In this document: positions 12,777-63,531 of the stretch, piece after piece | How positions within the stretch are numbered: position 1 is the first letter of the stretch | Layout: the number at the start of each line of letters is the position of its first letter | Assembly (NCBI RefSeq): GCF_000379465.1 | Contig: NZ_KB905392.1 | Span: forward strand, 434,001-498,000 | From: Sciscionella marina DSM 45152 | GTDB taxonomy: Bacteria; Actinomycetota; Actinomycetes; Mycobacteriales; Pseudonocardiaceae | Length of the DNA: 64,000 nt | Reading direction: 5' to 3' | Program-made: the position numbers and the translations under genes | Notes under the pieces: generated by a model | The model's database searches: none | Told to the model about the DNA's origin: nothing | Seen by the model: only the letters and a program-made list of their open reading frames with translations

Positions 12777-13820
12777 ATGAAACAGGCGGCGGAGCCGGGA
12801 TTGCGCCCCACGAAGCTGCGCGCCCGGCACCTCCTGGTGACGGTGCTCCTGCTGCTCGCCGTGGTGCTCGGGGCGATACTGCTCGGCGCCATCGATCTGG
12901 GCGCAGGCCGGGTGCTCGGTGAGATCTGGGCACAGCTCACCGGCGGCGTCTCCCCGCTGTCCGCACAGGAGGCCGCGATCCTCTGGGAGATCCGGGTGCC
13001 CCGGGTCGTGCTCGGCTGCCTGGTGGGTGCGGCACTCGCCGGGGCGGGGGCGGCCTATCAGGGAGTGTTCGCGAACCCGCTCGCCGACCCGTACCTGCTC
13101 GGTGCCGCGGCCGGGGCCGGGCTCACCGCGACGGTCGCGGTCGTCGCCGGGGCAGGCACCTCGGGTGGCCTGGTGCCGATCGTGGCCTTCGCGGGCGCGA
13201 TCGGCGGGGTGGTGCTCACCTGGACCCTCGGCAGGGCGGCCGGTCGCGGCACCATGACGCTGCTGCTGGCCGGTGTGGTGATCTCGGCGTTTCTCACCGC
13301 CGTGCAGACCTTCGTACAGCAGCTCGACACCACCACGATCAGCAAGCTGTACAGCTGGATGCTCGGCGGGCTCGGCAGCCCCGGCTGGTCCGAGATCCTT
13401 GCCGTGCTCCCCTACATCGTGCTCGCCGGGATCGTGCTGTGTATCTGTGCGCGCCTGCTGGATGTGCTCACCCTCGGCGACGAGGAGGCCGCGGCGCTCG
13501 GGATCCGGCCCGGGCTGGTGCGGATGCTCGTGCTCGGCGCGGCCTGCCTCGCCACGGCGGCCGCGGTCTCGATGAGCGGGCTGATCGGTTTCGTCGGCAT
13601 CGTGGTCCCGCACGCGATACGCCTGCTCGTGGGCGCCAGCCACCGCATCCTGATTCCGCTGTCCCTGCTCGGCGGCGCGGCTTTCCTGGTCGTCGCGGAT
13701 GTCGTGGCACGCACCGCGCTCGCTCCGGCCGAACTTCCGCTCGGGGTGGTCACCGCCTGCGTCGGCGCGCCCTTCTTCCTCGTGATCCTGCGCAAGGGGA
13801 CCCGCAATGGACGGGCTTGA
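12777..13820 (+). CDS. FecCD/BtuC-type ABC transporter permease
   Basis: A 347-residue integral membrane protein with about ten transmembrane helices, typical for type II importers. Family marks are IRVPRVVLGCLVGAALAGAG, YQGVFANPLADPYLLG and, near residue 265, GFVGIVVPHAIRLLVGASH, which contacts the ATPase. The ATG is supported by AGAAGG six bases before it. The ATPase gene overlaps its end by 14 bp. It forms the channel for the substrate delivered by the lipoprotein upstream. Confidence 0.95.
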   Translation: MKQAAEPGLRPTKLRARHLLVTVLLLLAVVLGAILLGAIDLGAGRVLGEIWAQLTGGVSPLSAQEAAILWEIRVPRVVLGCLVGAALAGAGAAYQGVFANPLADPYLLGAAAGAGLTATVAVVAGAGTSGGLVPIVAFAGAIGGVVLTWTLGRAAGRGTMTLLLAGVVISAFLTAVQTFVQQLDTTTISKLYSWMLGGLGSPGWSEILAVLPYIVLAGIVLCICARLLDVLTLGDEEAAALGIRPGLVRMLVLGAACLATAAAVSMSGLIGFVGIVVPHAIRLLVGASHRILIPLSLLGGAAFLVVADVVARTALAPAELPLGVVTACVGAPFFLVILRKGTRNGRA

Positions 13821-14577
13821 GCTGCACGGGCTCGCCGCAGGATACGGCGGGCACGACAAGGTGTCCGGGGTGGACGTCACGGTGCCGCCCGGATCCTGGC
13901 TGGCCATCGTCGGACCCAACGGGGCCGGGAAATCCACCCTGCTCAAGGCCACGGCCGGGCTGATTCCGCACCGGGGCGAGGTCAGCCTGGACGGGACCGC
14001 GCTCGCCGGTCTCGGGCGGCGCAAACGGGCTCGCGCGCACGCCTACGCCCCGCAATCCCCGCAGCTGCCCGCCGGGCTCACCGTCACCGACTACGCGCTG
14101 CTCGGCCGGACACCGTACCTCGGGCCCTTCGCCCGGGAAAGCTCCGCCGATCTGCGCATCGTCGCGGATGTGTTGCTGCGCCTGGATCTCAGCGAACTGG
14201 CCGACCGCGCACTGCACACCCTTTCCGGGGGCGAACGACAGCGCGCGGTGCTCGCCAGGGCGCTGGCCCAACAGGCCGAGGTGCTGTTGCTCGACGAACC
14301 GACCACCGGACTGGACATCGGGCACGCGCAGTCCCTGCTCGATCTGGTCGACCGGCTGCGCACCGACGACGGCAGCACCGTGGTGACCACGCTGCACGAC
14401 CTCACGCTCGCCATGTTGTACGCGGATACCGTGCTGCTGCTGGATTCCGGCCGCGCGGTTGCCTCGGGTCCGCCCGCCACGGTGCTCACCCCCGAGGTGC
14501 TGTGGCAGCACTACGGAGCGCGGGTGGAAACCCTGCGCACCGCGGACGGACGCACCGTGCTCACCCCGGTGCGGTGA
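13807..14577 (+). CDS. ABC transporter ATP-binding protein (BtuD/FepC type)
   Basis: A 256-residue nucleotide-binding subunit. Walker A is GPNGAGKST at about residues 37-45, the Q-loop is APQSPQ, the signature is LSGGERQ, Walker B is VLLLDEPT and the switch histidine lies in TTLHDLTLA. It powers the permease encoded just upstream, whose reading frame it overlaps. The gene ends 8 bp before an inverted repeat that belongs to the next transcription unit. Confidence 0.96.
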   Translation: MDGLELHGLAAGYGGHDKVSGVDVTVPPGSWLAIVGPNGAGKSTLLKATAGLIPHRGEVSLDGTALAGLGRRKRARAHAYAPQSPQLPAGLTVTDYALLGRTPYLGPFARESSADLRIVADVLLRLDLSELADRALHTLSGGERQRAVLARALAQQAEVLLLDEPTTGLDIGHAQSLLDLVDRLRTDDGSTVVTTLHDLTLAMLYADTVLLLDSGRAVASGPPATVLTPEVLWQHYGARVETLRTADGRTVLTPVR

Positions 14578-14585
14578 GCGAGTTC

Positions 14586-14613
14586 TCGGTAAGAATGGCA
14601 AAATTCTTACCGA
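14586..14613. promoter_or_regulatory. 11-bp perfect inverted repeat, candidate VapB operator
   Basis: TCGGTAAGAAT and ATTCTTACCGA flank a 6-bp spacer. The repeat lies 13 bp before the antitoxin ATG. It is AT-rich compared with its surroundings and includes hexamers that could act as a -10 box. Toxin-antitoxin modules of the AbrB/VapB type usually repress themselves through such a site. It could also form an RNA hairpin behind the ABC operon, but the position favours an operator. Confidence 0.65.
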
Positions 14614-14626
14614 ACAGGGGGTTCCG

Positions 14627-14857
14627 ATGCGAATTACCGAAAAAGGTCAGCTGACCATTCCGATCGATGTACGGAAAGCTCTCGGTATCCGCCCAGGCGA
14701 CGAGGTCGAGGTGCGCCTCGAGGGCGACCACGCCGTGTTGCAGCGAATCGAACGACCGGCTGATTACAGCAGGCTGGTGATCGAACAGCTGCGCGGCAAG
14801 GGCGATGTACCGATGACGACCGACCAGATCATGGCTTTGATGCGCGGCGATGGCTGA
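14627..14857 (+). CDS. vapB: AbrB/MazE-type antitoxin VapB
   Basis: A 76-residue antitoxin. The swapped-hairpin AbrB DNA-binding domain occupies residues 1-48 (KGQLTIPIDVRKALGIRPGD, then EVEVRLEG). The C-terminal tail from about residue 50 would wrap around the toxin. The base composition is less GC-rich than its neighbours, which hints at acquisition. It overlaps the toxin frame by 8 bp. Because the toxin gene is frameshifted, the antitoxin may now be an orphan. Confidence 0.88.
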   Translation: MRITEKGQLTIPIDVRKALGIRPGDEVEVRLEGDHAVLQRIERPADYSRLVIEQLRGKGDVPMTTDQIMALMRGDG

Positions 14858-15256
14858 ACCGGCAACACTGGTCGACACGAACGTTCTGATCGACATCCTC
14901 ACCGAGGACGAAACGTGGTTCGTTTGGTCTTCGACTGCGCTCGGCACCGCCTTGCGTGAAGGACGGCTGGTGATCAATCCGGTCATCTATGCGGAAGTAT
15001 CCGTACGGTTCGCCGACTACGAAACCTGTGACGCGACGCTCAGCGAGAAGGTCTTCGCCCGCGAGCCGCTCCCGTGGGAAGGCTCCTTTCTTGCCGGAAA
15101 GGCCTTCCAGCGCTACAAGCAACGCGGCGGCACGAAAACCAGTCCACTGGCGACTTCTGCATCGGGGCGCACGCAGCTGTCGCCGGGCTGCAGCTGTTGA
15201 CCAGGGACGCGCGCCGGTACCGCGACTACTTCCCCACGGTCGAGGTCATCGCGCCC
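14850..15256 (+). pseudogene. vapC: Frameshifted PIN-domain toxin VapC
   Basis: The first frame encodes 116 residues ending at 15200. VDTNVLID holds the first catalytic Asp (residue 9) and VIYAEVSVRF the conserved Glu. After KTSPL at about 15148 the frame leaves the family. The expected continuation, DFCIGAHAAVAGLQLLTRDA then RRYRDYFPTVEVIAP, is present but in another frame, as if one base were missing. Acidic residues of the active site are lost from the first frame. In the second frame no stop occurs at the usual end, so the native stop also seems lost. A sequencing error at one base is the alternative for the frameshift. The region overlaps trpA by about 30 bp. Confidence 0.8.
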
Positions 15257-16029
15257 CGACCGCGCACTCCCGCCGCGAGTTCCCCGGCCAGTGCGCGCAC
15301 CGCCGCTTCCGACTCCCCGGCCGCGGTGACGAAGGCGGAGCCGACGATCACCGCATCGGCGAACCCGGCGACTTCGGCGGCCTGCTGCGCGGAGCGCACC
15401 CCGAGTCCGAGCCCGATCGGCAGCTGGGTGTGCCTGCGCGCGCGGGCCACGGTCTCGGCCGCGGTGTCCGACAGGGTCGCCCGTGCACCGGTGACCCCCA
15501 TGACCGCCGCGGCGTACAGGAATCCGCTGGATGCGTTCGCGGTGAGCGCGATCCGTTCCTCGCTCGAGGACGGCGCGACGAGGAAGATCCGGTCCAGCCC
15601 GGCGGCCCCGGCCGCGGCGCACCAGCCCGCATCGTCATCGGGAACCAGGTCCGGGGTGATCACCCCGAGCCCGCCCGCGGAGGCGAGATCGCGGGCGAAC
15701 CGCTCGACGCCGTAGCGGTGCACCGGATTGAAGTAGGTCATCACCACCGCTCGCCCGCCCGCCGCGGCGACCGTCTCGACGGTGCTGAACACGTCGGCGA
15801 GCCGGAAACCGTTGCGCAGCGCGGTATCCGCCGCGGCTTGGATGGTCGGCCCGTCCATCACCGGATCCGAGTAGGGCACCCCGACCTCGACCAGATCGCA
15901 ACCGGATTCGAGCATCGCGGTCAGGGTGCGCTTCCCGTCCGCCACGGTCGGGTACCCGGCGGGGAGGTAACCGACGAGCGCGCCCCTGCCCTCGGCATGC
16001 GTGGTGTCGAACAGCGCCTGCAAGGTCAT
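15226..16029 (-). CDS. trpA: Tryptophan synthase alpha chain
   Basis: It cleaves indole-3-glycerol phosphate to indole and glyceraldehyde-3-phosphate and passes indole to TrpB. The protein is 267 residues. LVGYLPAGYPT opens the barrel. LVEVGVPYSDPVMDGPTIQ holds the catalytic Glu and Asp, and GLGVITPDLVPDDD and LGLGVRSAQQA complete the phosphate site. The frame is open to 16110, but residues upstream of this ATG come from a repeat, and GGAGCGAG before the ATG serves as ribosome site. A mini-ORF in the repeat ends with TGA overlapping the trpA ATG. It is the last gene of the trp operon. Confidence 0.95.
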   Translation of the reverse strand: MTLQALFDTTHAEGRGALVGYLPAGYPTVADGKRTLTAMLESGCDLVEVGVPYSDPVMDGPTIQAAADTALRNGFRLADVFSTVETVAAAGGRAVVMTYFNPVHRYGVERFARDLASAGGLGVITPDLVPDDDAGWCAAAGAAGLDRIFLVAPSSSEERIALTANASSGFLYAAAVMGVTGARATLSDTAAETVARARRHTQLPIGLGLGVRSAQQAAEVAGFADAVIVGSAFVTAAGESEAAVRALAGELAAGVRGRGAMTSTVGK

Positions 16030-16103
16030 CGCACTCGCTCCCTGGGGGAGCTCGGCGCTTCCCGCGGGCACTGTGTCATTGATTCGCTCGCAAGCTCGCT
16101 CAT
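16030..16103 (-). repeat. 74-bp mini-ORF linker repeat between trpB and trpA
   Basis: The unit starts with ATGAGCGAGCTTGCGAGC, whose ATGA overlaps the trpB stop. It ends in GGGAGCGAGTGCG directly before the trpA ATG. Read from its own ATG, it encodes a 25-residue peptide beginning MSELASES and ending ERVR, with a TGA that overlaps the trpA ATG. It therefore chains trpB to trpA through two ATGA overlaps and supplies the trpA ribosome site. It is clearly similar to the two units in front of trpC. The reading is direct; the coupling role is inferred. Confidence 0.75.
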
Positions 16104-17344
16104 TCGTCAACCAATCCGAAGTACCGCGCCGCGGTCTCCATGTCCTTGTCCCCGCGCCCGGACAGGTTCACCAGCAGCAGCCCGTCCGGACCGATTTCCG
16201 GGCCCAGTTCGATCGCACCGGCGAGCGCGTGTGCAGACTCGATCGCGGGGATGATGCCTTCGGTGCGGCACAACAGTTTCAGCGCCTGCATGGCCTGATC
16301 GTCGGTGACCGCGCGGTATTCGGCGCGGCCGGTGTCCTTGAGGCGGGAATGCTCGGGCCCGACACCGGGGTAGTCCAGGCCCGCCGAGATGGAGTACGCC
16401 TCCTTGGTCTGTCCGTCCTCGTCCTGGAGCAGATAGGACAGCGCACCGTGCAGCATCCCGGGGCTGCCCTCGGTGAGCGAGGCACCGTGTTCCCCGGACT
16501 CGATGCCGTGCCCGCCCGGTTCACAGCCGACCAGGCGCACATCCGGATCGTCGATGAAGCCGTGGAAGATCCCGATCGCGTTGGAACCACCGCCGACGCA
16601 GGCGAGCACCGCGCTGGGCAACCGCCCCGTCTGCTCGAGCACCTGGGACCGCGCCTCCTCGCCGATCACCCGGTGGAAGTTGCGCACCAGCACCGGGAAG
16701 GGATGCGCACCCGCGGCCGTACCGAGCAGATAGTGCGAGTCCTCGACATTGGTCACCCAGTCCCGCAGCGCCTCGTTGATCGCGTCCTTGAGGGTGCGCG
16801 AACCGGTGGTCACCGGAACGACCTCGGCGCCGAGCAGTCGCATCCGGGCCACGTTGAGCGCCTGGCGTTCGGTGTCCACCTCGCCCATGTAGACGACACA
16901 GTCCAGATCGAGCAAGGCGCACGCGGTCGCGGTGGCCACCCCGTGCTGACCCGCTCCGGTCTCGGCGATCACCCGCTTCTTGCCCATGCGCTTGGTGAGC
17001 AGCGCTTGGCCGAGCACGTTGTTGATCTTGTGCGAGCCGGTGTGGTTGAGATCCTCGCGTTTAAGGAACACCCGGGTGCCGCAGAGTTCCCCGAACCGCT
17101 TCGCCTCGGTCAGCAACGAGGGGCGGCCCGCGTACTCCCGGAGCAGCCGGGCGAACTCGCCGGTGAACGCCGGATCGAGCCGGGCCTTGTCGTACTCGGC
17201 CGAGAGCTCGTCCAGCGCCCCGATCAGCGCCTCGGGCATGAACCGGCCGCCGTACTCGCCGAAGTGCCCGCGCGCGTCCGGGTCGTGCGGGGTCGCCTCG
17301 TGTGCGTGCGTGACCACCGGGCTCACCTGCTCGGCCGCGGGCAC
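16100..17344 (-). CDS. trpB: Tryptophan synthase beta chain
   Basis: This PLP enzyme condenses indole with serine to give tryptophan. The protein is 414 residues. [13 protein letters not shown] carries the Schiff-base lysine, [18 protein letters not shown] the active-site region, and [15 protein letters not shown] the PLP phosphate-binding glycines. The start is GTG, and its first 22 bp overlap the trpC end. The TGA stop overlaps the ATG of the linker repeat. Confidence 0.97.
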
Positions 17345-18132
17345 GCCGGGTGCGATCCCGCGGTGACCAGCTTGTTCACCGCGGCCTTCGGGTCACCGGA
17401 AGCGACCAGCCCTTCGCCGACGAGCACCGCGTCCGCTCCGGATCCCGCATAGGCCATCAGGTCACCCGGCCCGCGCACGCCGGACTCGGCGATCTTGAGC
17501 ACGTCCGGCGGAAGACCGGGGGCGAGCTTGCCGAACACGTCCCGGTCCACCTCGAGGGTGTGCAGGTTGCGGGCGTTGATCCCGATGACGGTGGCGCCCG
17601 CCTCGAGTGCCCGATCGGCCTCCTCGGCGTTGTGCACCTCCACGAGCGCGGTCATACCGAGCGATTCCACCCGGTCCAGCAGCGCGGAGAGCACATTCTG
17701 GTCGAGTGCCGCCACGATCAGCAGCACCAGGTCGGCACCGTGCAGCCTGGCCTCGTGCACCTGGTAGGGGGTGACGATGAAGTCCTTGCGCAGCAAGGGA
17801 ATCCGCACCCGTTCCCGGACAGCGTCGAAGTCGGCGAGCGATCCGCCGAACCTCCGCTGCTCGGTGAGCACACTGATCACACGGGCCCCCGCGTCCGCGT
17901 AGCCCGCGGCCAGCGAGGCCGGATCGGCGATGCTCGCGAGTTCGCCCTTGGACGGGCTGCGCCGCTTGACCTCGGCGATCACGCTGACGTCCGCCTGGCG
18001 CAGCGCGGCGACCCCGTCCTGGGCGTCGGGCACCTGCGCGGCCTGCTTCTTCAGTTCCTCAAACGGGAGCACCGCCTCGCGCTCGGCGAGATCGGCGCGC
18101 ACGCCCTCGATGATGGAGTCCAGAACACTCAT
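17323..18132 (-). CDS. trpC: Indole-3-glycerol phosphate synthase
   Basis: It closes the indole ring from carboxyphenylaminodeoxyribulose phosphate. The protein is 269 residues, a single-domain TrpC without a fused Trp[15 protein letters not shown] holds the catalytic lysine, [16 protein letters not shown] the second, and [13 protein letters not shown] and [13 protein letters not shown] the phosphate-binding loops. The ATG is preceded by GAGGAGCGAG from a linker repeat whose mini-ORF stop overlaps it. trpB overlaps the 3' end. The TrpF step is presumably done by PriA. Confidence 0.96.
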
Positions 18133-18206
18133 CGCACTCGCTCCTCGGCGGAGCTCGACGCTTCGCGCCCACGCTGTATCAAAGATTCACTCGCAAGCTC
18201 GCTCAT
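18133..18206 (-). repeat. 74-bp mini-ORF linker repeat, unit next to trpC
   Basis: It is the same size and layout as the trpB-trpA unit. ATG at 18206 opens a 25-codon ORF (MSELASES to ERVR) whose TGA overlaps the trpC ATG, and GAGGAGCGAG forms the trpC ribosome site. It matches the adjacent upstream unit at about 63 of 74 positions, counted by eye. It lies head to tail with that unit. Confidence 0.78.
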
Positions 18207-18280
18207 CGCACTCGCTCCCCGACAGAGCACGACGCTTCGCGCCCACGCTGTATCGATGATTCGCTCGCCGGTCCGCTCAT
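18207..18280 (-). repeat. 74-bp mini-ORF linker repeat, outer unit
   Basis: The ATG at 18280 opens another 25-codon ORF (MSGPASES to ERVR), whose TGA overlaps the ATG of the next unit. GGGAGG stands 4 bases before the ATG, so ribosomes can enter here and pass through two mini-ORFs to trpC. A small hairpin (18289-18304) sits just upstream. The 127 bp between that hairpin and the upstream membrane-protein gene show no gene and no Trp-rich leader. Confidence 0.75.
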
Positions 18281-18431
18281 GAGGCCTCCCACGCGGAGAC
18301 GTGGTTTCGTCAGCTTCGCGAGTGACCCCGATCTCGGTGTCCGTGTCGGACAGGTGAGTTTCGTCACGGATTCGTTCCCCTTCCCGCTGCACTGATGCTA
18401 ACTCCCGCTCCCTTGGCCCATCCGGTTCGGG

Positions 18432-18953
18432 TCACTTCGTCGTCGGATCCTCCCCTTCGGAGAGCGCGTCCCACATCCGCTGATCCGGGGCTTTCGCCCG
18501 TTGTCTGCCCGCACCCCGGGTGTATCTGGCGCCCATCGCGGGCAGTACCCGTGCCGCGGAGAGCAACGCAGCGGCGGCCCCGAGCTCGGCGAGGGCCGCC
18601 AGCCCCACCAGGCTCCTGGCCAGCACATCCCGGTCACTCGGGGCGGTACTGCCCGGCCCCGGTGCGAAGGGGGCGGCCCCGGCGATCCCGCGATAGGCCA
18701 GATAGCAACCGCCCAGCAGCACGAGAACCCCGATGATCCGTTTCACCGGCGCACCACCCGCGAACTGGGCGGCGAACGCGGCCAGCGCGAGCAGGGCCAG
18801 TGGCACCAGCTCGGGCACCGCCTCCGAACCGCGCACCGGTGCCCTGCCCGCCGACCAGCCGAGCCGCGAGGAACCCCACAGCAGCGCGGCGGCCAGCAGC
18901 AGGCACAGCAGCAGTACCCACAGGGCGGAGCGGCCGGGGCGGCGATCAGTCAC
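18432..18953 (-). CDS. Tryptophan-operon-associated membrane protein (TIGR02234 type)
   Basis: A 173-residue protein with four predicted transmembrane helices (near residues 10-30, 48-66, 72-90 and 110-130) and a basic C-terminal tail. Proteins of this kind sit between trpE and trpC across actinobacteria (Rv1610 in M. tuberculosis, from memory) and have no proven activity. Transport or membrane tethering of pathway intermediates is speculation. The GTG overlaps the trpE stop by 8 bp, so the two are translationally coupled. Confidence 0.85.
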
Positions 18954-20463
18954 GGCCGGTCACCTCGGGTGCTGCCATCGTCTCGGCGGCGGCAATCGCG
19001 GCGAGGACCGCGCCCGCCTTGTTGAGCGTCTCCTGGTCCTCGGCGTACGGATCCGAGTCCGCGACGATCCCCCCACCCGCCTGCACGTAGGCGACGCCCT
19101 CGCGCATCACCGTGGTGCGGATGGCGATCGCGGTGTCCGCGTTGCCCGCGAAATCCAGATAGCCGACCACACCGCCGTACAGCGCGCGCCGGGTCGGTTC
19201 GTATTCCTCGATCAGTGCCATGGCACGCGGTTTCGGCGCCCCGGAAAGCGTGCCAGCCGGGAAACAGGCCACGACGGCGTCATGCGCGCCGCAGTCCGCA
19301 CGCAGCTCACCGGTCACCGTGGAGACGATGTGCATCACGTGGCTGTAGCGCTCCACCCGGAACAGCTCCACCACGTGCACGCTGCCCGGCTCGCACACCT
19401 TGCCGAGGTCGTTACGCCCCAGGTCGACGAGCATCAGGTGCTCGGCGCGCTCCTTCTCGTCGGCGAGCAGATCCTTCTCCAGCGCAGCGTCCTCCTCCGG
19501 ATCGGCCGCGCGCCACCGGGTGCCGGCGATCGGGTGCATGGTCGCCCTGCCGTCGGTGACCGTCACCAGCGCCTCGGGGCTGGACCCGACGATGTCGAAG
19601 CCCTCCAGGCGCAGCAGGTACATGTACGGGCTCGGGTTGGTGGTGCGCAGTACCCGGTACACGTCGACCGGGTCCGCTTCGGTGCGCACCTCGAACCGCT
19701 GGGAGACCACGATCTGGAAGGCTTCTCCCGCCTTGATCGCCTCCTTGGCCGCGTCGATCGCCGCGTGGTGCTGCTCCTGCGTGCGCTTGCGGGTGAACTC
19801 CGGCTTCGGGCGCTCGAACAGGGCCGCGGTGGCCGGGGCGGGCGCGAGCAGGGTCGCGGTCATCTCGTCGAGCCTGCGTACCGCGTCGGCGTAGGCCTCG
19901 TCCACCCGCTCGGAGCTGTTGTCCCAGTTCACCGCGTTCGCGATCAGCGTGACGGTTCCGGTGTGGTGGTCCACCGCGGCGAGATCGGTGGCGAACAGCA
20001 TGGTCATCTCGGGCAGCTCGAGGTCGTCCTCGGCCAGCTCGGGGAGCCGTTCCATCCAGCGGACCGCGTCGTAGCCGATGTAGCCGACCATGCCACCGGT
20101 GAGCGGGGGCATCCCGGGCAGCGGTTCGGTGCGCAGGGCCTCGACCGTCTCGCGCAGGGTGGCGAGCGGATCATCCCCGTGCGGCAGGTCCACCGGCGGC
20201 TCACCGCGCCACACCGCCTTGCCGTCGACGACGGTGAGTGCCGCGGGGCTGCGCACCCCGACGAACGACCAGCGCGACCAGGATTTGCCGTTCTCCGCGG
20301 ACTCGAAGAGAAAGGTCCCCGGCCGGTCCCCGGCGAGTTTGCGGTACACCGAAAGCGGCGTCTCCGCGTCGGCGAGCAACCGCCGCGCGACCGGGATCAC
20401 CCGGCGATCGGCGGCAAGCTCGCGGAACTCTGTGAGGGACAGACTCACCCGTGTCGTGGACAT
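18946..20463 (-). CDS. trpE: Anthranilate synthase component I
   Basis: It converts chorismate to anthranilate, the first step of tryptophan synthesis. The protein is 505 residues. [19 protein letters not shown] near residues 50-70 matches the tryptophan feedback site (ES motif). The catalytic half contains [53 protein letters not shown] and [13 protein letters not shown]. No trpG lies nearby, so the glutamine amidotransferase must come from elsewhere. A second in-frame ATG three codons upstream is possible; neither has a clear ribosome site. Confidence 0.97.
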
Positions 20464-20497
20464 GGGAACCATTCTGCCGGTCGGTCCGACAGTTCCC
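20464..20497. promoter_or_regulatory. Nested inverted repeats between trpE and a TetR gene
   Basis: GGGAAC and GTTCCC lie 22 bp apart, and within them GTCGG-T-CCGAC forms a second short palindrome, all inside a 54-bp divergent promoter gap. The arms are short and could be chance in GC-rich DNA. If real, the TetR protein could influence trpE as well as itself. Confidence 0.3.
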
Positions 20498-20517
20498 CGC
20501 GCGGGCTGTTTACTCTC

Positions 20518-21117
20518 ATGACCATGCCAGGGCGAAGGAGAGGCCGCAGGCCGGCGAGCGAGGACACCAGGACGGTGCTGATCGAGGCCGCACGCGCGGT
20601 GTTCACCGAGCAGGGCTATGCGGGTGCCACGGTCCGCCAGATCGCCGCACGCGCGGACATGGATCCCTCGATGATCAACCACTGGTTCGGCGGGAAGGAC
20701 GCGCTGTTCACCGAGGCGGTGCTGCAGCTGCCGTTCCGCCCGGTGGACATCGCCGCGAACGTGCTCGACGGACCGGTCGACGAGCTCGGCGAACGGTTCG
20801 TGCGCACCGTGCTCCGCGTCTGGGACTCCGCGGGAGGCGGGCAGATGACCGCCGTGCTGCGCAGTTTCGCCACCAGCAACGAGGCGGTCCAGGCTTTTCG
20901 CGAGCAGATGCTCGACAAGGTGTTCCTGCCACTCGCCGAGCGGCTGCAGGTCGAGGACGCGGCGTTCCGGGCGACCCTGTGTGCCTCGCAGATGGCCGGG
21001 CTCGCCCTGGCCCGCTACGCTCTCGTCCTCGAACCCCTTGCCTCCGCGGACCCGGAGACGGTGGTCACGGCCGTCGCGCCGAACCTGCAGCGCTACCTGA
21101 CCGGGGACCTCGGCTAG
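20518..21117 (+). CDS. TetR/AcrR family transcriptional regulator
   Basis: A 199-residue repressor. It has a basic N-terminus ([15 protein letters not shown]), a helix-turn-helix at residues 15-60 ([20 protein letters not shown], then [15 protein letters not shown]) and a C-terminal helical ligand domain resembling the TetR_C class with [20 protein letters not shown]. It is divergent from trpE with a 54-bp gap. The target and ligand are unknown. An ATG two codons further in is an alternative start. Confidence 0.88.
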
Positions 21118-62544: not shown

Positions 62545-62637
62545 GATCAGACCGATGACCCTGCTGCCCCGACGCGGCCTTGCCTGCGCTCCTCGGGCCG
62601 CAGGCGGCCCTGCGATGCTCGGAAAGGACCGCCTCAC

Positions 62638-63531
62638 ATGACTACGAACACCGCACAGCGCACCCGATTCTCCGACCGGCTCTCCAGCTTCGGCTACGCA
62701 CGGCCCCGGCTTCGCCTCGCCGGGCTGCTGTCGCTGCCCATGCTCTGGCTCGGCCTCGCCTATCTGGCCGCGCTCGCCGCCCTGTTCGTCTCCGCGTTCT
62801 GGACGACCGACAGCTTCACCGGGGAGACCGTCCGCGACTGGAACGTGGACAACTTCGTCAGCCTGTTCTCCGACGGGGTCTATCGCTCGATCACCTTTCG
62901 CACGCTCGGCGTCGCCGTCGGGGTGACCCTCATCGACGCGCTGATCGCCTTCCCCATGGCCTACTACATGGCGCGCTACGCATCCGTTCGCGCGCAACGG
63001 ATACTGGTGATCGCGATCCTCACCCCACTGTGGGCGAGCTATCTGGTGAAGGCCTACGCGTGGCGCACCATGCTGGCGCCGAACGGGCTCATCGGCTGGC
63101 TGCTGCACCCGTTCGGATTGGACAGTCCCGGTTACGGCGTGACGGCCACCCTGATCACGCTTTCCTACCTGTGGCTGCCGTACATGATCCTTCCGGTGTA
63201 CGCCGGGCTCGGGCAGCTGCCACAGTCCCTGATCGAGGCGTCCACGGATCTCGGCGCGCGGGGCTGGCGCACCTTCCGTTCGGTGATCTTCCCAATGGTG
63301 TTCCCCTCGGTGATCGCCGGTTCGATCTTCACCTTCTCGCTGTCCCTCGGGGACTACATCGCGGTGCAGATCGTCGGCGGGACCTCGCAGATGCTCGGCA
63401 ACGTCGTCTACTCCAATGTCGGTGCCGCGAACAATCTTCCGTTCGCCGCGACCGTGGCCACCATCCCCGTGGTGATCATCCTGCTCTACCTGTTCGCCGT
63501 GCGCCGCACCGGTGCGCTCGACAATCTGTGA
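62638..63531 (+). CDS. Polyamine ABC transporter permease (PotB/YdcU type)
   Basis: A 298-residue inner-membrane subunit with six predicted helices. FPMAYYMARYAS and LTPLWASYLVKAYAWRTML near the middle are family blocks. The EAA loop reads IEASTDLGARGWRTFRSVIF, with the conserved glycine, and contacts the ATPase. AAGGA lies about ten bases before the ATG. It pairs with the second permease gene starting 7 bp later. Confidence 0.94.
   Translation: MTTNTAQRTRFSDRLSSFGYARPRLRLAGLLSLPMLWLGLAYLAALAALFVSAFWTTDSFTGETVRDWNVDNFVSLFSDGVYRSITFRTLGVAVGVTLIDALIAFPMAYYMARYASVRAQRILVIAILTPLWASYLVKAYAWRTMLAPNGLIGWLLHPFGLDSPGYGVTATLITLSYLWLPYMILPVYAGLGQLPQSLIEASTDLGARGWRTFRSVIFPMVFPSVIAGSIFTFSLSLGDYIAVQIVGGTSQMLGNVVYSNVGAANNLPFAATVATIPVVIILLYLFAVRRTGALDNL

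Follow-up and report, generated by a model that had tools for sequence, protein, structure and literature searches.

Why should the trp operon of an actinobacterium carry, between its genes, short repeated units that each encode a small peptide of their own? The question is raised by a 64,000-nucleotide stretch of Sciscionella marina DSM 45152 (contig NZ_KB905392.1, positions 434,001 to 498,000; hereafter the window, whose numbering we use), the minus strand of which carries three units of 74 bp each at 16030-16103, 18133-18206 and 18207-18280, one before trpA and two in tandem before trpC. An earlier note on this DNA had described 74-bp units with 25-codon mini open reading frames (mini-ORFs) chained through ATGA, and the coordinates, frames and overlaps bear this out. 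Indeed, every unit opens with ATGAGC and holds a 25-codon ATG...TGA frame whose TGA lies inside the next ATGA, and the mini-ORFs (16026-16103, 18129-18206 and 18203-18280) each share four bases with the next ATG. The TGA of trpB overlaps the ATG of the unit at 16030-16103, with 430 open codons behind that TGA; the pair before trpC has only 10 open codons upstream, and thus no coupled upstream gene. In an 89-nt register, the units at 18133-18206 and 18207-18280 are 78% and 74% identical to the one at 16030-16103. As argued below, these units are probably copies of a translation-transparent mobile element resembling the mycobacterial interspersed repetitive units (MIRUs).

Are the units, which the earlier note described inside the trp operon, a feature of that operon? 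They are not confined to it, since they belong to a family that is dispersed in the host genome and across many genera. A search of the host genome with a unit as query gave at least 47 matches at E≤1, a 77-bp sister unit gave 49, and a model of the 77-bp sister gave at least 88 at E≤0.1, including 74-bp and partial copies; the first and the last of these counts are lower bounds because the searches behind them score limited numbers of candidates. Since at least 47 unit matches and at least 88 sister-model matches occur genome-wide, the trp units are not a chance resemblance. Within the window, a family model whose training copies include the three trp units themselves recovered these with E values of 1.3e-25, 1.7e-21 and 2.7e-21, while the next match had an E value of 0.033. 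When 26 near-full-length copies were aligned, they read ATGAGCGAGCTTGCGAGCGAATCA ... GGGAGCGAGNGCGATGA. The family, which we call SELASE, has two main subfamilies, one of 74 bp with ATGA ends and one of 77 bp with GTGA ends. Thirteen further stretches that matched by their first bases only were mostly members of the 77-bp sister subfamily, with GTGA at both ends and peptides like VSELASEPEDTVALRAMGTSVSEEAS; among the remainder, the head was in some cases fused to a longer ORF. On the minus strand at 63377-63410, the tail of the 77-bp model (positions 43-76) matches weakly (12.9 bits, E 0.009), possibly by chance.

These copies bear directly on the idea of a trp-specific device, whether one of the small trp proteins (TrpM/TrpX, for example) or an attenuator with a leader peptide. 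The units do sit inside the trp operon, and the passages of PMC5036795 that bear on it describe a small ORF within the Streptomyces coelicolor trpCXBA operon. However, similar units precede dozens of other host ORFs, no Trp residue occurs in any of the three peptides, and a congener lacks units at both trp places. According to the same passages the TrpM/TrpX protein is highly conserved among streptomycetes (PMC5036795), whereas the host sequence is a dispersed repeat without a conserved peptide. The genome-wide copies contradict such a device, and we give it practically no credence.

The position of the copies is more informative than their number. Counting by the head pattern with base 22 left free, we recognized 56 units in the host's own loci that were read, 51 of which contain a short frame (≤60 codons). 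Nearly all of these (49/51) end at RTGA, where R is a purine, and their lengths are mostly 77 bp (23 units) or 74 bp (22 units). The earlier note had staked its reading on whether unit ends abut start codons, and in the host the RTG that closes the unit is the start of an ORF (60 codons or more) or of a further unit in 48 of the 51 copies, so that they do not sit without regard to starts and stops. The same holds for short-frame units in Kutzneria (43/46), Blastococcus (14/16) and Pseudonocardia (16/17), as well as for 70 of 76 in 80 loci collected across genera by a head search. In those cross-genus loci an RTGA end was present in 68 of 72 short-frame units, as against 527 of 2193 control ORFs of 15-60 codons that also begin with RTGA; in 319 of the 2193 controls an ORF of 60 codons or more follows as well. 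The control fraction with an RTGA end is thus not small in these loci, nor is it elsewhere, being 290/873 in the host's own loci, where other families and overlapping loci are included, and 58/210 in Kutzneria. A gene call by G+C at codon positions gave 56 genes and 765 RTGA sites in the window, 17 of these sites lying at called gene starts and 146 being wholly non-coding and away from starts. Random insertion at RTGA with coding hits purged would accordingly leave about 10% of copies at starts, or 28% if all 56 called genes began with RTGA.

Comparison with a congener (G001) provided sites both with and without the units. The congener was sampled over 1.16 Mb, within which BLAST placed 17 host loci, corresponding to 12 distinct sites, at ≥89% identity; weaker paralogous hits were set aside. 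Twelve junctions were aligned, one at each of the sites except the tail-only locus L066 (11 of 12) and one more at another place in L060. Seven of the 12 junctions are empty in the congener: trpB/trpA, trpC (where the host has two units), L019, L067, L060, L070 and the second place in L060, at which the host copy belongs to another family. Five of these seven are clean at RTGA, while at L070 the flank has changed and at trpC the ATGA of the host corresponds to GTGA in the congener. Both genomes are occupied at L010 and L049, and the number or make-up of the repeats differs between them at L051, L058 and L078. At trpB/trpA the congener reads GACGA-ATGA-GTTTG, the two genes overlapping as ATGA without any unit, and the trpB-trpA junction had no unit in any of the eight relatives read. 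Because the congener genes already overlap and the eight relatives lack a unit, the trpB/trpA unit is best read, on these alignments, as a derived insertion that preserved an existing overlap. The notion of a copied cassette that couples neighbouring genes therefore needs to be amended: a copied, coupling mini-ORF whose 3′ end resembles a ribosome site and abuts starts is what we see, but the coupling of trpB to trpA pre-exists in the congener, and the unit would have kept it, not supplied it.

The empty sites are also relevant to the possibility that the units are adaptive translation regulators, kept for raising or tuning the expression of the downstream gene. Placement at gene starts would suit such a role, as would the differences in tandem repeat number between the congeners (two against one at L051, one against two at L058), and according to passages of PMC2734929 longer tandem repeats went along with higher fpg1 mRNA in Mycobacterium tuberculosis. 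In contrast, seven of the 12 congener junctions are empty, both trp places among them, and the peptide is not conserved. We consider regulation of this kind unlikely as the reason why the units are kept.

The frame within the units is open far more often than composition would predict. No inner stop was found in the 22 full-length 74-bp units (78-nt rows from the 26 aligned copies), where shuffles gave an expectation of 9.3, and only two of 19 full-length 77-bp units, unselected for frame, had one, against 8.0 expected; together, an in-frame stop occurs in 2 of 41 full-length units with 17 expected. An earlier 77-bp set with no inner stop in 22 units had been picked for open frames and was thus biased, and the unselected recount is the one to be used. 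Of the 88 alternative frames in the 74-bp set and the frame-picked 77-bp set (two per unit), 31 contain a stop. Variation is lowest at the third codon position in the 74-bp, 77-bp and Kutzneria sets, which is the reverse of what a selected peptide would produce. Because the third position varies least, we see no sign of a selected peptide, and the alignments place the constraint on the open frame and the ends. The suggestion that codons and ends are conserved through selection on translation thus held for the frame and the ends and failed for the peptide. Tandem arrays offer a measure that does not depend on the frame: among 12 pairs the start-to-start spacing is 77 bp in eight and 74, 75, 76 and 78 bp in one each, that is, 3n-1 in nine of the 12. 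The tandem spacings alone count here, as a length of 3n-1 proves nothing for a unit that was delimited by its own frame.

Besides the frame, the units contain sequences that could pair. The head, RTGAGCGAGCTTGCGAGCGAAY, is an imperfect palindrome with tandem G-A mismatches, and in one head variant the outer G-A mismatches become Watson-Crick pairs. The first base and base 22 covary: in 249 units, 94 of which belong to loci whose collection required R at base 1 and Y at base 22, we counted GC 118 times, AT 112, GT 9, AC 8 and other combinations twice, and when each body cluster was counted once the figures were AT 45, GC 34, GT 7, AC 7 and other 2. In Kutzneria the same body was found with both states of this pair. 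We also considered that base 22 might guide the start base at the 3′ end and rejected this; the cross-genus sample looked favourable, C22 going with ATGA in only one of 20 cases, but Kutzneria closes with GTGA in 43 of 45 whatever its base 22. In the 77-bp alignment the body stem takes in the downstream start codon, and the stems of this subfamily enclose both start codons. For this named structure, 22 cells are changed on both sides of a pair against 5.4 in shuffles (reached in 0 of 500), far above slid controls, although the slid control is biased towards a structure that was itself derived from this alignment, and shuffles of related copies do not make a strict test.

Such pairing need not act in RNA. 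The units could be selfish at the level of DNA, with ends that fold as single strands, an RTGA recognized by pairing with an inner base, and a frame kept open by the purging of copies that break coupling, without any host benefit or role as RNA. The first pair speaks for this, in that it shows no preference for G-U: G-T is no commoner than A-C (9 and 8 of 249). The total of the remaining head pairs and the 77-bp body stem both contain more G-U than A-C, which suits RNA. In addition, the purging of genic hits leaves the near absence of copies from non-coding RTGA unexplained, given that the window has 146 such sites and 17 at starts. A purely DNA-level element is a distinct possibility, though not the explanation we would choose.

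We favour instead a MIRU-like element that is transparent to translation. Copies of it would insert exactly at RTGA, four bases that can accommodate both a start codon and the overlapping stop of the frame before it. Typically, a copy would bring its own RTG start, about 25 sense codons, a purine-rich stretch resembling a ribosome site and a closing TGA inside the next RTGA. A ribosome finishing the upstream gene could restart on the unit, read through its stems, stop at the TGA of the unit and restart on the gene, and the insertion would thereby go unnoticed by translation. Both the translation of the units and the re-initiation are suggested by the layout of the sequence, and we infer that the element is mobile and driven in trans by an enzyme.

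Several observations weigh against this reading. As to siting, a downstream ORF of sufficient length is missing in the host at L023 (33 codons) and after two L065 units, whose end is GTAG, and in Amycolatopsis arida only four of 10 units lead into an ORF or a next unit while six do not. Five of the 56 host units (L011, L035, L043, L044 and L048) and up to 16 of 92 units in the 80 cross-genus loci run in frame into a longer ORF, which is fusion and not coupling. An upstream frame is closed by the unit (≥60 codons, or open to the edge of the locus) in 33 of the 56 host units, a count that has no control. The first base of RTGA differs between the congener and the host at trpC and L070, which leaves the bookkeeping of the target unsettled. 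Two 77-bp units, members of one tandem pair, have a TAG at codon 25, and some tandem arrays are read through in one frame, giving two frames of 50 codons in the host and, in Kutzneria, six of 52 and six of 78-104 codons. As to structure, stem covariation in the 74-bp subfamily, to which the trp units themselves belong, does not exceed that in shuffles, and folding predicts only a modest hiding of the start codons. Finally, no candidate transposase was found in an enzyme search that was confined to the Y1 transposase.

The latter result concerns another explanation as well. IS200/IS605 and REP/RAYT systems have a Y1 transposase, a tetranucleotide target and hairpin ends. The repeats of these systems resemble the host units in being short, dispersed and palindromic with a tetranucleotide at the foot, and the oriented, tetranucleotide-specific insertion beside imperfect palindromes would agree with a non-autonomous derivative of either. 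Y1_Tnp was detected in nine of 60 genomes, but the 14 carriers of the element among these 60 (at E≤1e-8, host included) all lack it, and the host element, unlike those repeats, carries an ORF. About two carriers with Y1_Tnp would be expected by chance, and its absence is weak evidence: it leaves descent from such a system unsupported but does not disprove it. Descent from IS200/IS605 or REP/RAYT seems improbable to us.

How does the preferred, translation-transparent element relate to what is already known? The obvious comparison is the MIRU, for which the original reference is reportedly Supply et al. (1997). Passages of PMC12548453 present MIRUs as apparently mobile, inserting at start codons and carrying an ORF coupled at a spacing of -4, and MIRU is also described in passages of PMC2734929 and PMC4213456. 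On the strength of these passages, the likeness extends to short repeats both dispersed and in tandem (with its 47 to 88 matches, the host family is dispersed in the way expected of MIRUs, as repeats of about 40-100 bp at tens of loci), an inner small ORF with a four-base overlap of the neighbouring gene, insertion at start codons and a variable repeat number. The MIRU lengths of 77 and 53 bp are of the form 3n-1 that chaining by four-base overlaps needs, like nine of the 12 tandem spacings in the host. The differences are the sequence, the host range of many actinobacterial genera, and the covarying stems of the host 77-bp subfamily and of a second family described below.

A shared ancestry is not apparent. 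With what we take to be the MIRU tail pattern, repeats were located in 198 of 396 mycobacterial genomes, the reversed pattern giving none among the matches listed, and 12 of 49 frames starting at these MIRU-like repeats are 53 bp long. Two models of the trp-unit family (R1 and R2) applied to 30 mycobacterial loci with such repeats found no homology with MIRU, the best score at a MIRU position being 8.7 bits (E 0.25, with R2) and lower with R1; the best match anywhere in these loci (16 bits) lies away from the MIRU. MIRU tails repeatedly show a weak likeness to positions 38-74 of the model (about 4-9 bits), which is not significant and was rejected as a sign of homology. The family of the trp units thus works like MIRU and is not a demonstrated MIRU. 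Small ORFs coupled to genes at RTGA have also been reported in mycobacteria, where the linkage can persist without the peptide, according to passages of PMC4633059; these ORFs share with our units the RTGA junction to the next gene and the keeping of linkage but not peptide. In contrast to our units, they are not presented as repeat copies in those passages, and the words MIRU and interspersed do not occur in the text of PMC4633059. The letters of the repeat and its peptide words were not found in the text of open-licence papers, which among the matches listed held no such repeats outside mycobacteria, and a scan of window positions 13000-21000 against Rfam 15 gave no match up to E 1. As far as these searches show, the element is known in kind and new in sequence, host range and structure.

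Among actinobacterial genera the occurrence of the element is patchy. The 77-bp model matched 14 of 60 genomes, the host included, at E≤1e-8, with 1 to 54 matches each, and at that threshold the remaining 46 had none; such patchiness would fit the selfish DNA-level element considered above. An exact search for the head in named genomes yielded at least 116 stretches, of which 80 loci were returned, not all of them complete units. The genera among the matches listed were Pseudonocardia, Kutzneria, Actinophytocola, Actinoplanes, Catenuloplanes, Phytohabitans, Micromonospora, Nocardia, Rhodococcus, Blastococcus, Amycolatopsis, Saccharothrix and others. Model hits at E≤1e-5 were obtained in 13 of 15 named genomes chosen for having a head match; Kutzneria sp. 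CA-103260, for instance, has 77 hits, Pseudonocardia alaniniphila 60 and a Blastococcus 49. The two genomes with no model hits at this threshold, despite their head match, are those of Mycobacterium sp. AZCC_0083 and Mycolicibacterium septicum. In the genus of a Mycobacterium record, matches at E≤0.001 were present in 27 of 248 genomes, and nine of 20 mycobacterial loci examined hold a 65-bp, 22-codon unit (V/MSEACER, V/MSDACER and the like) with an RTGA end. These 65-bp relatives of the head (L287, L288, L289, L296, L298, L299, L300, L303 and L305) number one or two per matching genome.

The comparison with the congener also revealed a second family, with 40 matches in the host genome and no relation to that of the trp units. 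In 18 of the 30 loci read there is a unit bounded by RTGA and 83, 86 or 101 bp long, e.g. MTVLSRSDLSRAPRSLTLAAMLGKEPLS; most are 83 bp long, with ATGA or GTGA ends and a 28-codon frame (L477-L495, L500 and L501). One copy, found by the family search, lies on the plus strand of the window at 62555-62641, where an 83-bp unit (62555-62637) is followed by its closing ATGA, its mini-ORF MTLLPRRGLACAPRAAGGPAMLGKDRLT preceding an ORF of 297 codons. The stem of this family encloses GGAAAGG, a stretch resembling a ribosome site, and double-sided changes occur in 35 of its cells, as compared with 13.8 in shuffles (reached in 0 of 500); we named this stem from the sequences, and RNAalifold recovers a similar one unaided. 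In its three outer pairs all 51 cells are Watson-Crick, 22 double changes being among them and not a single G-U, which suits DNA-templated change and hence the selfish DNA-level element. A third family of 80-83 bp with ATGA ends (MSPEATSAGASQRALASEERTGGGVQA; MSPEATSAGASQR... and the like) was found at L496, L497, L504 and L506, and shares a core with the second family on the opposite strand.

Because several families of one design share one genome, they argue for a general mechanism. We tentatively suggest, well short of expecting it to prove correct in full, that mobile elements transparent to translation may form a general class in actinobacteria, with MIRU, the SELASE family seen in the trp operon and the 83-bp and 80-bp families as its separate lineages. 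All would be bounded by RTGA and carry a coupling mini-ORF, with RTGA bases pairing with a covarying inner partner (base 22 for the first base and, in the 77-bp body, column 48 for the first base of the downstream start). This pairing, or a link to translation, might direct insertion to places where start and stop overlap. If so, what looked like a mycobacterial curiosity would become a wider strategy, by which mobile DNA survives in operons through a coupling frame of its own. The question of how MIRU-like repeats find start codons would then become testable in non-pathogenic actinomycetes with many copies, empty sites and several unrelated families.

A practical consequence concerns annotation. 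Because the head was found fused in frame to longer ORFs, MSELASES or VSELASEP N-termini on actinobacterial proteins may be remnants of the element and not native. Heads in frame with a long ORF, giving an MSEPASES/VSELASEP-like N-terminal extension, were seen at L035, L043, L044, L048 and L186, the last of which (from Nocardia wallacei) resembles trpA by eye. Tandem units forming one continuous frame of 50 to 104 codons, the last unit alone keeping its stop, were observed at L411, L413, L420, L421 and L429 in Kutzneria and at L008 and L015 in the host.

The trp-like genes next to the units all lie on the minus strand. The trpA-like gene (15226-16029), whose ATG overlaps the TGA of the unit at 16030-16103, was identified by a PF00290 match (G000:C13:449304-450011, equivalent to window positions 15304-16011). 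The trpB-like gene (16100-17344, start codon approximate) was named by sequence resemblance and position and served as a tblastn query. The trpC-like gene (17323-18132), whose congener relative is 98.9% identical in protein, has its ATG overlapping the TGA of the downstream unit of the pair (18133-18206); the unit at 18207-18280 is the upstream one. The trpC start may be occupied repeatedly, as a short coupled frame, VRELASEPEKNRECT, was found upstream of trpC at L116 of another genome (G017), and elsewhere a model match (G007:C60:10325-10401) lies about 2.1 kb before trpA. On the plus strand at 14627-15200, an AbrB/MazE-like short ORF is followed by a PIN-domain-like ORF that seems to end early, the two being, by eye, convergent with trpA.

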